From Hyphomonas sp. (GTDB taxonomy: Bacteria; Pseudomonadota; Alphaproteobacteria; Caulobacterales; Hyphomonadaceae), in contig CP051229.1 in the NCBI GenBank assembly GCA_017792365.1, positions 558,001 through 622,000 on the forward strand: a stretch of 64,000 nt of DNA. The letters run 5' to 3'. Shown here piece by piece: positions 17,357-45,251 of the stretch (the stretch's first letter is position 1; the number at the start of each line of letters is the position of its first letter). Made by a program: the position numbers and the translations under genes. The notes under the pieces are model-generated. The model was not told where the DNA came from, searched no databases, and saw only the letters and a list, made by a program, of their open reading frames with translations.

Positions 17357-18502
17357 ATGAAAAGAGCACTTTTGTGCGCCACCGCGGCCGCGACGATGGT
17401 TTCGGTTGGCGCTGTCGCGCATGCACAGGATGGCTGGTACGGTACAGCCAAAGTCGGTGGCATCGTCGACGGAATACAAGACATCGACGCGCCGCCGAAT
17501 ACCAACGGCGCGCTCGACACCCGTAGCGGTCTCGACTTCGACTGGAGCTACGGTCTCGGCCTTGGCTATGGCTATTCGAGCGGTTTCCGTCTCGAAGCGC
17601 TCGGCTCCTACAGAAACGTGGAAATCGAAGTTCCGGACTCCTTCGTCGGCGCTCAGCCAGCCGGTACGGCTGGCCCGGCCGGCAGCGGCAGCACCCGCGC
17701 GACGGTCCTGATGGGATCGCTGATCCGCGACTTCAATCTTGATGGCGATGTTCGCCCGTACATCGGTGTTTCGGCCGGTGTCGGTCGCGTCGATACCCGC
17801 GCAGTTTCGCTTTACAGCGCGCCTGCGGGCACGGGCGCCAACGGCTTCGACGACAGCGACAGCAACTTCGCCTACGGCGCAGTGGCCGGTCTCGGCTTCG
17901 TGCTCTCCGAGCGCCTGACCGCTGATCTCGGCTACGCATACACGGCGATCGATGATCTCGAATTCCGTGGTCGCGATGGCGGTTACAGCAGCTCCTATCA
18001 GGAGCACGCGGTGACGGCTGGCCTGCGTTGGCAGTTTGCGGCGCCTCCGCCGCCTCCGCCTCCGCCGCCCCCTCCGCCGCCTCCGCCGCCTCCGCCTCCG
18101 CCGCCGCCTCCGCCGCCGGTGAACGAGACGACCCAGGCAGACCAGTGCGCGACGCAACCTGAGCCGTTCACGGTCTACTTCGAGTGGGATCGCTCGGACC
18201 TCACCGCGTCGAACGAAGACGTGCTCAACCAGGCGATCTCTCGCGTTCGCGAGGGCGACTGCCAGGTCACGGTGGTCATGGTCGAAGGTCACACCGACTC
18301 GTCGGGTGGCAACGCCTACAACGAAGCCCTGTCTGCGCGTCGCGCCGACACGGTCCGCCAGGCCCTCGTGGCGAACGGCATCTCTGCCGAGTCGATCACG
18401 ACCGAAGCCCGCGGCGAGAACGATCAGGCCCGCGCCACGGCTGACGGCGTGCGCGAGCCGCTGAACCGTCGTGCTGAAGTGGCGATCACGATCGCCCCGT
18501 AA
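17357..18502 (+). CDS. OmpA-family outer membrane protein with 25-proline linker
   Basis: A 381-residue outer membrane protein. A signal peptide ends at AVAHAQ. The next ~210 residues form an OmpA-like eight-stranded beta-barrel (DGWYGTAKVGG at the start, GLRWQF at the end). An uninterrupted run of 25 prolines (18044-18118) follows. The C-terminal OmpA domain, which binds peptidoglycan, has VYFEWDRSDLT, VEGHTDSSG and NRRAEVAI. It probably tethers the outer membrane to the cell wall. A strong ribosome-binding site and a strong terminator suggest a single, highly expressed gene. Confidence 0.93.
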   Translation: MKRALLCATAAATMVSVGAVAHAQDGWYGTAKVGGIVDGIQDIDAPPNTNGALDTRSGLDFDWSYGLGLGYGYSSGFRLEALGSYRNVEIEVPDSFVGAQPAGTAGPAGSGSTRATVLMGSLIRDFNLDGDVRPYIGVSAGVGRVDTRAVSLYSAPAGTGANGFDDSDSNFAYGAVAGLGFVLSERLTADLGYAYTAIDDLEFRGRDGGYSSSYQEHAVTAGLRWQFAAPPPPPPPPPPPPPPPPPPPPPPPPPVNETTQADQCATQPEPFTVYFEWDRSDLTASNEDVLNQAISRVREGDCQVTVVMVEGHTDSSGGNAYNEALSARRADTVRQALVANGISAESITTEARGENDQARATADGVREPLNRRAEVAITIAP

Positions 18503-18603: not shown

Positions 18604-19539
18604 CTAGTTGCCGCTGGAGCTCGCCCGCCGTTGATCGGTCTGGTCTTCCGTTCCTGCAGCCGGGGCGCCGATCGCGGGCAGCGGGGCGAGGTCGAAACCT
18701 GCGCCGGACACTTCCAGCATGCGATTGAAGGCTGCCAGCAGGGACAGGGCGGCGGCCGGGTCCGGGTTGTCGGTCTGCCGGTTGGTCGAGGCGACTACTG
18801 ATTTGGTCAGCAGGCGCACCAGTTCGCGCAATCTCTGCGGCTCGATCTCGCGCACCAGCCCTTCAACGGCTTCGGCGTCGTGCGCCGGCGTTGCAGGCGG
18901 ACGCATCGCGAGCGCGGCCGCGTCGACCTCGTATAGGACGGGTGAAAGGATGCCGGTCTTGGCGCGTGTCTGTGCGAGGACGTGGTCGCCGACATCGATG
19001 CGTGCGGCGACGGCTGTTCCCTTGCCGCCTTCATAGGCGCGCGGGGCGCCGAGGTATTCGACCGGCCAGCCATAGGCCCTGATCCGCTCGGCCAGTCTCG
19101 CTTCGCATAGCATCGTCAGGCAGTCCGCGCCTCTCGACTGGCAGAACTCCAGAACGCCAAGCGCCAATTCGCGCTGATGATTGCTGGGCCAGCGCTTGCC
19201 GTCGGCCCGCCGCTGATCCGGCCGCGCGATCCACCGGGACAGATCCCAGCATGTTTCCGATGCGGGTAGGGGCGCATCTGCATAGGCGCTGAACTTCTTG
19301 AGAAGCGTCGGCCCGGTTGTCGGGTTGAGGCGGAGAGACGCCGCCACATCGCCAAACTCGTCGACACTGACGAGGTAGACGGCGTCGAGATCATCGAATT
19401 CGTCGACCTCGCGCCCATCAACGCCCGTGAGGCCATCCCAGCCGTGACCGAGCACATAGTATTCGTGCCGCATCCGGAACATCTGATCGAGCTGCTTGCC
19501 GTAGATGAACTGGTTCCGGGATGTGATGACCTGGATCAC
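18604..19539 (-). CDS. LuxI-family acyl-homoserine lactone synthase-like protein with C-terminal extension
   Basis: LuxI enzymes join S-adenosylmethionine and an acyl-ACP to make N-acyl-homoserine lactone signals. The N-terminal ~210 residues fit the family: Arg24, Trp34 (GHGWDG), Asp46 and Asp49 (VDEFDDLDAVY), Arg70 (SLRLNPTTGP), Phe83, then CWDLSRW. The last motif usually reads WE.SR, so Asp99 replaces the usual Glu. The product is 311 residues, about 100 longer than typical LuxI; the extra C-terminal part (from about DHVLAQTRAK) is not recognised. The start is a GTG at 19539 with GGGAG upstream. There is no LuxR gene next to it. It could be a true synthase or a divergent GNAT-fold relative. 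Confidence 0.78.
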   Translation of the reverse strand: MIQVITSRNQFIYGKQLDQMFRMRHEYYVLGHGWDGLTGVDGREVDEFDDLDAVYLVSVDEFGDVAASLRLNPTTGPTLLKKFSAYADAPLPASETCWDLSRWIARPDQRRADGKRWPSNHQRELALGVLEFCQSRGADCLTMLCEARLAERIRAYGWPVEYLGAPRAYEGGKGTAVAARIDVGDHVLAQTRAKTGILSPVLYEVDAAALAMRPPATPAHDAEAVEGLVREIEPQRLRELVRLLTKSVVASTNRQTDNPDPAAALSLLAAFNRMLEVSGAGFDLAPLPAIGAPAAGTEDQTDQRRASSSGN

Positions 19540-19740
19540 GGCGGCTCCCTGCGTGTCCGTGTGGCGCGACTGCTGACGCGGACTATGCCTGCCGCCGCAC
19601 AAAATACAACCCAGAGTAGCATAGAGTGCGCGAATATTTCGCCTGTGGCCGAGCGGAGGTTCGCCCGCAGGCCCCAGACAAGGGGCCACGCGCTACACAG
19701 AAACACTTGGCGCCTATCGCGAGCGGCGTAAGTAACGCCC

Positions 19741-20478
19741 ATGATTGAGCAGGACGAAAGATCGCTAACGGCCGGGAAAAGCGCGCTGGTGTTGTTCTCA
19801 GGCGGGCAGGATTCGACCGTCTGCCTCGCCTGGGCCCTCGAACGCTTTGAAAGCGTCGAGACGATCGGCTTCGACTATCGCCAGCGGCACCGCATCGAAC
19901 TCGAGTGCCGCATCAAGGTTCGCAGCGAGATCGCAGCGGCGTTTCCCGACTGGGCGGGCAAGCTGGGCGAGGATCACCTGCTGGATTTGGGCGTCCTTGG
20001 AGAGGTCTCCGACACGGCGCTGACGCGAGAGCAGGCAATCGTGCAGAAGGAGTCCGGTCTGCCGTCCACCTTCGTGCCGGGCCGCAATCTGATCTTTCTT
20101 TCGCTGGCGGCGGCCGTTGCCTACCGGCGCGGCGCGGGCCGACTGGTCGCTGGCATGTGCGAGACGGATTTCTCCGGCTATCCCGACTGCCGCCGCGACA
20201 CGATCGATGCGACCCAGCAGGCGCTGAGCCTCGGGCTGGATACGGCGATGCAGATCGACACCCCGCTGATGTACGTCGACAAGGCGCAGACCTGGGCCAT
20301 GGCGGACGAACTGGGCGGTGAGCGCCTGGCCGAGATCATCCGCGAGCACACCCACACCTGCTATCTTGGCGAACGCGACACGATGCATGAATGGGGGCTG
20401 GGATGCGGCGCGTGCCCGGCCTGCGAGCTGCGCGCCGCCGGCTGGCGCAGATATCGTGAAGGATCGGCGGGCGCATGA
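19741..20478 (+). CDS. queC: 7-cyano-7-deazaguanine synthase QueC
   Basis: QueC turns 7-carboxy-7-deazaguanine, ammonia and ATP into preQ0, a queuosine precursor. The PP-loop ATP pyrophosphatase motif [16 protein letters not shown] is near the N-terminus. The zinc-binding cysteines are at the C-terminus ([10 protein letters not shown], with an earlier Cys in HTCYLGE). The product is 245 residues. Its stop overlaps the queE start by four bases, so the two are translationally coupled. Confidence 0.95.
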
Positions 20479-21104
20479 CCTATAGCGTCAAGGAAGCCTA
20501 CTACACGCTGCAGGGCGAGGGCGCACATACCGGCCGCGCCGCCGTGTTCCTGCGTTTTGCGGGCTGCAATCTCTGGTCCGGTCTGGAGCGGGATCGCGAA
20601 AGCGCCGTCTGCCGGTTCTGCGACACGGATTTTGTCGGCACCGATGGACCGGGTGGCGGCAAGTTCAAGACGGCTGCGGAACTGGCGAGCCACGTCGCCG
20701 GGCTCTGGCCGGGGGGAGGCGTCCCCTACGTGGTCGCAACAGGCGGCGAACCGTTATTGCAACTCGACGAGGCCTTGATTGAAGCGCTGCACGAGGAAGG
20801 CTTCGAAGTCGGCGTCGAGACCAACGGAACGATCGCCGCGCCGGCCGGTCTCGATTGGATCTGCGTCAGCCCGAAGTCGACGGCGGAACTGAAGCAACGA
20901 TCTGGTGATGAGCTGAAGCTCGTCTACCCGCAGGCCGATGCGTCGCCCGAGCGGTTCGAAGCGCTCGACTTTGCCTCTTTCGTCATCCAGCCGATGGATG
21001 GACCGGAGGCCGCAGATGCGCGGCGCGCCGCGATCGCGTTCTGCCTCGCCAACCCGAAATGGCGGCTGGGACTGCAGACCCACAAACTGCTCAACCTTCC
21101 ATAA
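20475..21104 (+). CDS. queE: 7-carboxy-7-deazaguanine synthase QueE
   Basis: QueE is the radical-SAM enzyme that contracts 6-carboxytetrahydropterin to 7-carboxy-7-deazaguanine, the step before QueC. The product is 209 residues. The cluster cysteines are in FAGCNLW and [10 protein letters not shown], the spaced CX14CX2C pattern of the QueE group. ATGGGEPLLQ is the SAM-contacting GGE motif. It starts inside the queC stop (ATGA). A terminator follows, so queC-queE is a two-gene operon; queD is not in the window. Confidence 0.95.
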
Positions 21105-44369: not shown

Positions 44370-45251
44370 ATGGGCAATTGGGTGTTGGGGATACTTGGCG
44401 GGTCGGGCCTCTACGAGCTCGAGGGGCTGGAAGGCGGACGCTGGGAGAAGGTGACGTCCCCTTGGGGCGAACCCTCTGACGAGGTCTATCGCGGACACAT
44501 CGGCAGCGTGGAGCTGGTATTCCTTCCGCGACACGGACGCGGGCACCGGCTGTCGCCAAGCCACCTGAACTACAGGGCCAATATCGACGTCCTCAAACGG
44601 GTCGGCTGCACGGATGTGTACTCGGTCTCGGCCTGCGGTTCCCTGCGCGAAGACATAGCCCCGGGCGACTTTGTCGTCGTCGACCAGTTCATCGACCGCA
44701 CACACCTGCGGGAGCGCTCCTTCTTCGGAGACGGCGTCGTGGCCCATGTCCCGATGGCGGATCCGGTTTCCACCCGCCTCGGCGAGTTCGCGGTCCACGC
44801 GGCAGAGCCGACCGGCGTCCGCATGCACCGCGCCGGAACCTACGTCGCAATCGAGGGACCCCAGTTTTCAACACGCGCGGAATCCCTGATGTACCGCTCC
44901 TGGGGCTGTTCCGTCATCGGCATGACCAACATGCCCGAGGCTCGGCTGGCACGGGAAGCCGAGCTCCCATACGCGACCATCGCCATGGCCACGGACTACG
45001 ATTGCTGGCGCGAGGAGGAGGAGGGCGTCTCCGTCACGGACGTTGTCCGCGTCCTGCGAGAGAACGCCAGCCACGCCCGCGCCCTGATCACCCGTATCGC
45101 GCAGGACATGGGGGCCGTGGAGCGAACGCCAGACCCGCAGGGGATCGAAACCGTCCTCGACCACGCCTTGATCACCGACCCTGCGGCGCGCGACCCGGCA
45201 TTGCTGGGCAAGCTCGATGCGGTCGCCGGCCGCGTCTTGCGCTCATCATGA
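44370..45251 (+). CDS. mtnP: S-methyl-5'-thioadenosine phosphorylase
   Basis: Splits methylthioadenosine, a by-product of polyamine and homoserine lactone synthesis, into adenine and methylthioribose-1-phosphate. The 293-residue product has the class II nucleoside phosphorylase motifs GILGGSGLYEL, LPRHGRGHRLSPS, SACGSLRE and GPQFSTRAES. The ATDYDCW motif, where Asp fixes 6-amino purines, supports adenine nucleosides over guanosine or inosine. A ribosome-binding site (TGGAGGG) precedes the ATG. It is followed by a GST gene and apt, which uses the released adenine. Confidence 0.92.
   Translation: MGNWVLGILGGSGLYELEGLEGGRWEKVTSPWGEPSDEVYRGHIGSVELVFLPRHGRGHRLSPSHLNYRANIDVLKRVGCTDVYSVSACGSLREDIAPGDFVVVDQFIDRTHLRERSFFGDGVVAHVPMADPVSTRLGEFAVHAAEPTGVRMHRAGTYVAIEGPQFSTRAESLMYRSWGCSVIGMTNMPEARLAREAELPYATIAMATDYDCWREEEEGVSVTDVVRVLRENASHARALITRIAQDMGAVERTPDPQGIETVLDHALITDPAARDPALLGKLDAVAGRVLRSS

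Follow-up and report, generated by a model that had tools for sequence, protein, structure and literature searches.

The 64,000-nucleotide stretch of Hyphomonas sp. DNA analysed here (the window) carries a luxI-type gene that, with a probability of roughly 75%, belongs to a quorum-sensing circuit based on acyl-homoserine lactone (AHL), in which the genes for synthase and receptor stay stably unlinked; its pairing with a LuxR protein and the binding of that protein to an upstream box are predictions from comparative sequence evidence. The cognate receptor of the synthase is most likely the one unpaired LuxR protein of the genome. It is rare for LuxI and LuxR genes to be parted, and pairing is usually inferred from adjacency. 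Joint loss of the two genes and a conserved promoter box here point to a partner 1.5 Mb off, so labels of "solo" that are based on adjacency can hide real pairs, and a testable receptor, box and signal are now named for the Hyphomonadaceae. The features are collected in the table.

Table. Features of the luxI locus and of the unpaired luxR gene (positions are those of the window unless a genome coordinate is given)
Feature	Position	Strand	Basis
luxI-type gene, 311 aa, GTG start	18604..19539	(-)	PF00765 E 6.4e-21; phmmer; tree
Catalytic GNAT/LuxI domain, residues 1-205	18925..19539	(-)	AlphaFold2 model; VIA-align; dN/dS
Asp99 codon (WDLSR), Glu in most LuxI proteins	19243..19245	(-)	15/15 long-clade members vs 3/70 others
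Helical part of tail, residues 216-279	18703..18894	(-)	AlphaFold2 helices; model of a relative; dN/dS
Last about 32 residues and stop codon, low complexity, predicted disordered	18604..18702	(-)	pLDDT; identity; dN/dS
Candidate lux box GCTACT-CTG-GGTTGT, 67-81 bp before start codon	19606..19620	(-)	conserved inverted repeat
OmpA-family gene, convergent neighbour at the conserved luxI site	17357..18502	(+)	same neighbour in g5, g8
queC and queE, divergent neighbours, other flank in several relatives	19741..21104	(+)	TIGR00364, TIGR04508
Unpaired luxR	G000:C1:2114232-2115005	minus	beside aroB; about 1.54 Mb from luxI

A Pfam profile search matched residues 13-186 of the predicted protein to Autoind_synth (PF00765) with 75.2 bits against a curated cut-off of 24 (E = 6.4e-21), a match far beyond chance. 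By phmmer, the nearest solved proteins were RpaI (2.1e-25), MesI (3.3e-21) and BjaI (5e-20), followed by TofI and LasI. An earlier note, made from the letters of the DNA alone, had called the gene a LuxI-type synthase and suggested an HMM search as a check; the profile score and these nearest relatives confirm the call. The FeeM profile (PF21926) reached 21 bits, below its curated cut-off of 27, and the profile scores together with the fold described below speak against FeeM or another GNAT family, which were both rejected. The GTG start at 19539 is supported by a start-site comparison, in which the proteins of relatives open at the same codon (MIH...). A GTG at 19689 is less likely to be the start, since the relatives start downstream and the box would fall inside the gene. 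A chance open reading frame or a sequencing error is out, given orthologues at the same site that are about 55% identical over 283-309 residues.

The AlphaFold2 model of residues 1-205 had pLDDT values mostly over 90 and the GNAT-type fold of AHL synthases, with an rmsd of 1.5-2.1 A over 196-203 residues against RpaI and BjaI. The VIA-align Z scores of the model were 28.2 for RpaI, 28.1 for BjaI, 22.9 for LasI and 14.4 for FeeM. Eight residues are invariant in the LuxI family (Arg24, Phe29, Trp35, Asp46, Asp49, Arg70, Glu100 and Arg103 in LuxI numbering; PMC3907830); six of the eight are identical in the synthase, and the other two are conservative replacements (Phe to Tyr28 and Glu to Asp99). 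Tyr28 in place of the LuxI-consensus Phe28 is likewise found in RpaI and MesI. Arg24, Trp34, Asp46, Asp49, Arg70 and Phe83 are in place as had been noted before, and so is Arg102; the S-adenosylmethionine-site residues Arg24, Trp34, Asp46, Asp49, Arg70 and Arg102 were invariant in an alignment of 29 sequences. Pairwise dN/dS of the catalytic domain was about 0.07-0.3 among orthologues of genera g1, g5 and g8, and 0.14-0.32 for the present synthase against its orthologues, indicating purifying selection; these figures are rough because synonymous sites were often near saturation.

In the carrier-binding helix of CoA-group LuxI proteins, position 6 is Arg and position 9 is not basic (PMC4234381). 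By alignment with RpaI, position 6 of the synthase would be Arg152 and position 9 Ala155, with an extra Arg at position 8, the register against LasI having been set by reasoning. RpaI, which makes 4-coumaroyl-HSL, and BjaI, which makes isovaleryl-HSL, are the nearest solved structures (29-32% identity, Z 28), fall in the same tree group and probably agree with it in Arg at position 6 and a non-basic residue, here Ala, at position 9; however, they are about 213-221 aa long in the PDB, compared with 311 aa for the synthase, and have Glu in the ExSR motif where the synthase has Asp. Both rpaI and bjaI have an adjacent luxR. We infer that the gene encodes an acyl-CoA-dependent AHL synthase, with both the product and the CoA preference predicted from sequence.

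Relatives that are 54-56% identical over nearly the whole length came from Hyphomonadaceae genomes, and more distant ones (38-44% identical) from two further genera, g3 and g7. In the LuxI tree, the 15 long members (281-311 aa) were monophyletic (support 97/86) and lay inside a group with RpaI, BjaI and MesI (99/86 and 100/93); the characterised references in the tree were these CoA-dependent enzymes, so the boundary of the group is only partly covered. LuxI relatives from the neighbouring family f3 (250-260 aa) were sisters of the long clade (100/92). The f3 proteins of G038 and G046 have a WDMTR motif, like the Asp of the long clade, but unlike that clade they are shorter (250-253 aa) and have luxR directly adjacent, which suggests that luxI and luxR became unlinked at a later stage, within the Hyphomonadaceae. 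An unusual LuxI-like subgroup had been offered earlier as one option for this gene, and the monophyletic long-tailed Hyphomonadaceae clade is such a subgroup.

Asp99 stands where the family has Glu, as had been read earlier from WDLSR in place of the usual WExSR. Asp occupied this site in all 15 long-clade members that cover it, compared with 3 of 70 other LuxI proteins, leading to the view that the change is old, fixed and conservative. The motif was WD[LI][ST]R in every one of the 15, and among the three sisters WDMTR occurred twice and YEITR once. As judged from the alignment, the change is a fixed conservative property of the long subgroup and not a mark of decay.

The extra C-terminal part, described before as an extension of about 100 residues, is real and comprises about 106 (residues 206-311). 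Three helices (219-231, 234-255 and 261-277) were predicted in it at modest confidence (pLDDT about 57-78), followed by an end that is predicted to be disordered (pLDDT 42-48); a second model, of a g7 relative that is 37% identical, had a helical tail as well. The dN/dS of the helical part was about 0.15-0.7 in most pairs of g1, g5 and g8 orthologues, whereas the last 32 or so residues were 4-39% identical with values near 1 in many pairs, indicating, with figures as rough as those for the catalytic domain, moderate constraint on the helical part and nearly none on the end. Comparison of tail profiles between subgroups gave p of about 1e-4 for g1/g5/g8 against g7, while those involving g3 gave 0.02 and 0.13; on these profiles, homology of the tail is reasonably supported between g1/g5/g8 and g7, and weakly so with g3. 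The tail had also been suggested to be new. This holds in so far as no Pfam match at E <= 1 was found after about residue 205, but long LuxI C-termini are already known from the Roseobacter proteins SsaI (284 aa) of Ruegeria sp. KLH11 and SilI1 (286 aa) of R. pomeroyi, to which the synthase is likened by described length only (PMC3907830). SsaI and SilI1 are linked to their own luxR and belong to the Roseobacter lineage, whereas the present gene is unlinked and from the Hyphomonadaceae.

Profile searches of the genome (one contig, 3.398 Mb) detected three PF00765 genes and three PF03472 luxR genes. Two of the luxR genes each immediately precede one of the other luxI genes, making ordinary luxR-luxI pairs (L001/L004, G000:C1:2920652-2922083; L003/L005, G000:C1:933597-935079). 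The synthase of the L003/L005 pair (263 aa) has a moderately long C-terminus as well. Beside the luxI of the window (C1:576607) there is no luxR, the nearest PF03472 genes being at C1:933597, 2114478 and 2920652. The search for LuxR solos that the earlier note had suggested thus leaves one of the three luxR genes unpaired. Its product has a PF03472 ligand domain (61 bits) and a LuxR HTH, and, when aligned to CviR, keeps the AHL-pocket residues W79, Y83, D92, P93 and W107; the orthologue in G020 has Phe instead of Trp79.

Orthologues of the unpaired LuxR formed a supported clade (98/88) in g1, g5, g8 and g7, and all four genera carry the long LuxI. The order aroB-luxR-DnaJ-like is kept in g1, g5 and g8, and the DnaJ-like neighbour is kept in g7 too. 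The long luxI likewise keeps its site next to the OmpA-family gene across relatives, and next to queC where that flank is visible; the OmpA-family gene adjoins luxI in g5 and g8, and broken or deleted luxI copies too, and the queC/queE order is the same in L008 and L093. An OmpA-like gene and queC had been named as the neighbours before, correctly. With luxR and luxI each at one conserved site, far from the other, both genes seem to have been inherited vertically. In three genomes (G030, G026 and G007), the long LuxI and the orthologue of the unpaired LuxR were the only LuxI and PF03472 partners found, which makes that orthologue the only candidate receptor there.

Genus g5 offered the clearest pattern of joint retention and loss. 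Among its 15 genomes, most of them draft metagenome assemblies, eight had both genes intact, six had neither, one had luxR only (G004) and none had luxI only. The Fisher p was 0.0014 for the whole set and 0.010 when it was restricted to genomes with a completeness of 90% or more; both p-values ignore relatedness. In G121 and G126, OmpA and queC are directly adjacent, indicating that luxI was cleanly deleted there, whereas G122, G127 and G034 retain luxI remnants with stops or frame breaks at the OmpA site. None of these five genomes had a LuxR orthologue. In the Lon tree, G121/G126 were separate from G122/G127, and this split, together with deletion in one case and decay in the other, indicates that the two unlinked genes were lost together on no fewer than two separate occasions. 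A luxR without the long LuxI was found in G004 (99% complete) and in the g7 genome G022, so luxR can outlast the synthase. The earlier statement that no LuxR is adjacent is therefore right for the immediate surroundings of the gene, but the picture of a lone synthase is not, because an unpaired LuxR is co-inherited and co-lost with it.

The pairing is not universal to the long subgroup. In six genomes of g3 (L020-L024, L013; L075-L080), the long LuxI occurs with a single LuxR, which is unlinked and differs from the unpaired one described above, and a different inverted repeat lies upstream of their luxI, GATGGATTTCCATC in several genomes. The g3 synthase and its own LuxR are perhaps a second, separately formed unlinked pair. 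One g3 copy (L024, G018:C1:641839-642648) has an in-frame TAG early in a long luxI that is conserved in other respects, possibly a recent pseudogene or an assembly error.

Upstream of luxI, a 15-bp inverted repeat, RCAACY-N3-RGTTGY (RCAACYNNNRGTTGY), was present in all 10 genomes compared from g1, g5 and g8. All 10 relatives matched at 11-12 of the 12 positions, and 0 of 2000 shuffled upstream sets reached the summed score. The pattern was picked by eye on the same regions, so this test somewhat overstates the significance, but the score of 117 lies well clear of the shuffle maximum of 93. The form RCWACYNNNRGTTGY has only three matches in the 3.4-Mb genome, the luxI site at 19606-19620 among them; since chance alone would give one match of this stringency in the 64-kb window, only the conservation of the box counts. 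No box at this level was found at the broken or deleted luxI loci. Upstream of the unpaired luxR, no box scored above shuffles, and such a box there was rejected. The two other strict matches in the genome are a perfect palindrome, ACAACC-TTT-GGTTGT, before a GNAT-type gene (L196, G000:C1:79543-79557), and a site before a hisH-like gene (L198, G000:C1:1409058-1409072). These sites are 14-18 bp before their genes with no evidence of use, and they were not retained as box targets.

In the proposed circuit, the synthase would couple S-adenosylmethionine to an acyl-CoA, giving acyl-HSL, methylthioadenosine and CoA. The accumulating signal would be bound by the unpaired LuxR, which in its signal-bound form would activate luxI, and possibly other targets, via the RCAACY-N3-RGTTGY box; the outcome would be positive feedback of the ordinary kind, with its two genes at unlinked loci. 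The LuxR proteins that belong to the two pairs could respond to the signal as well. The helical tail may have an accessory role, perhaps in oligomerisation or stability. A fuller version of this circuit, in which the pair is kept at two fixed distant sites across genera, the box acts at the synthase promoter and the tail alters assembly or control, is a tentative one and on balance doubtful; if true, LuxI and LuxR would be co-evolving as a stably unlinked system, and the synthase would contain a regulatory module. MtnP, a housekeeping enzyme, had also been put forward as a link to this synthase. The gene itself is real (44370-45251), but no evidence of a link was found beyond general metabolism, and the two other synthases would need MtnP equally.

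The gene could instead be a true LuxI solo. The synthase would then be active but have no dedicated receptor, and its signal would be sensed by the LuxR proteins of the two pairs or by other species. There is precedent in SscI of Ruegeria KLH11, a known LuxI without its own LuxR (PMC3907830), and the genome does have two other luxR-luxI pairs. However, paired systems are missing from several genomes that carry the long LuxI, where the single unlinked LuxR stands by itself, and neither the co-inheritance and co-loss with the unpaired LuxR nor a conserved upstream box would be expected of a solo, which we therefore regard as unlikely.

Two further readings concern the protein itself. An enzyme with the LuxI fold might make a product other than an AHL, such as another N-acyl amino acid; the weak score for FeeM, an N-acyl amino acid synthase (21 bits, cut-off 27), and the Glu-to-Asp change at a site listed as invariant would fit this. 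Yet RpaI is far nearer (E 2e-25, Z 28) than FeeM (Z 14.4), the S-adenosylmethionine-site residues do not vary across the 29 sequences and the co-inherited LuxR keeps its AHL-pocket residues, which together make a non-AHL product quite improbable. Decay of the synthase would be another way to read the altered motif and the odd tail, and it draws on the broken copies at the same place in G034, G122 and G127 and on the in-frame TAG in G018. It is set against an open frame of 311 codons, a catalytic-domain dN/dS of 0.14-0.32, an Asp99 that is fixed in intact members and a box that is kept, and decay is accordingly the least credible of the explanations, with hardly any weight.

LuxI solos and unlinked luxI and luxR genes have already been surveyed (PMC4338825), and very few cognate unlinked pairs were known to a 2023 review (PMC10134790). 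As in those systems, no luxR lies beside the present synthase gene and a LuxR solo lies elsewhere; the difference is that luxI and luxR here stay apart at fixed sites in several genera, and that their co-loss is evidence for a joint function. LuxI solos, long tails and unlinked genes thus all have precedents, and what is new is the combination of fixed-site separation across genera, parallel loss and a conserved box. In the open-licence literature, no characterised LuxI/LuxR system was found for the Hyphomonadaceae, whose LuxI proteins received brief mentions only.

Two minor observations were made along the way. In the OmpA-family neighbour (17357-18502), a stretch of about 27 prolines lies between the barrel and the OmpA domain; L007, a relative from g5, has this stretch too. 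LuxI matches were seen in open frames of 699 and 459 codons (G275:C61:190843-191286 and G386:C4:831254-831760, respectively), which are possibly larger fusions or just open frames.
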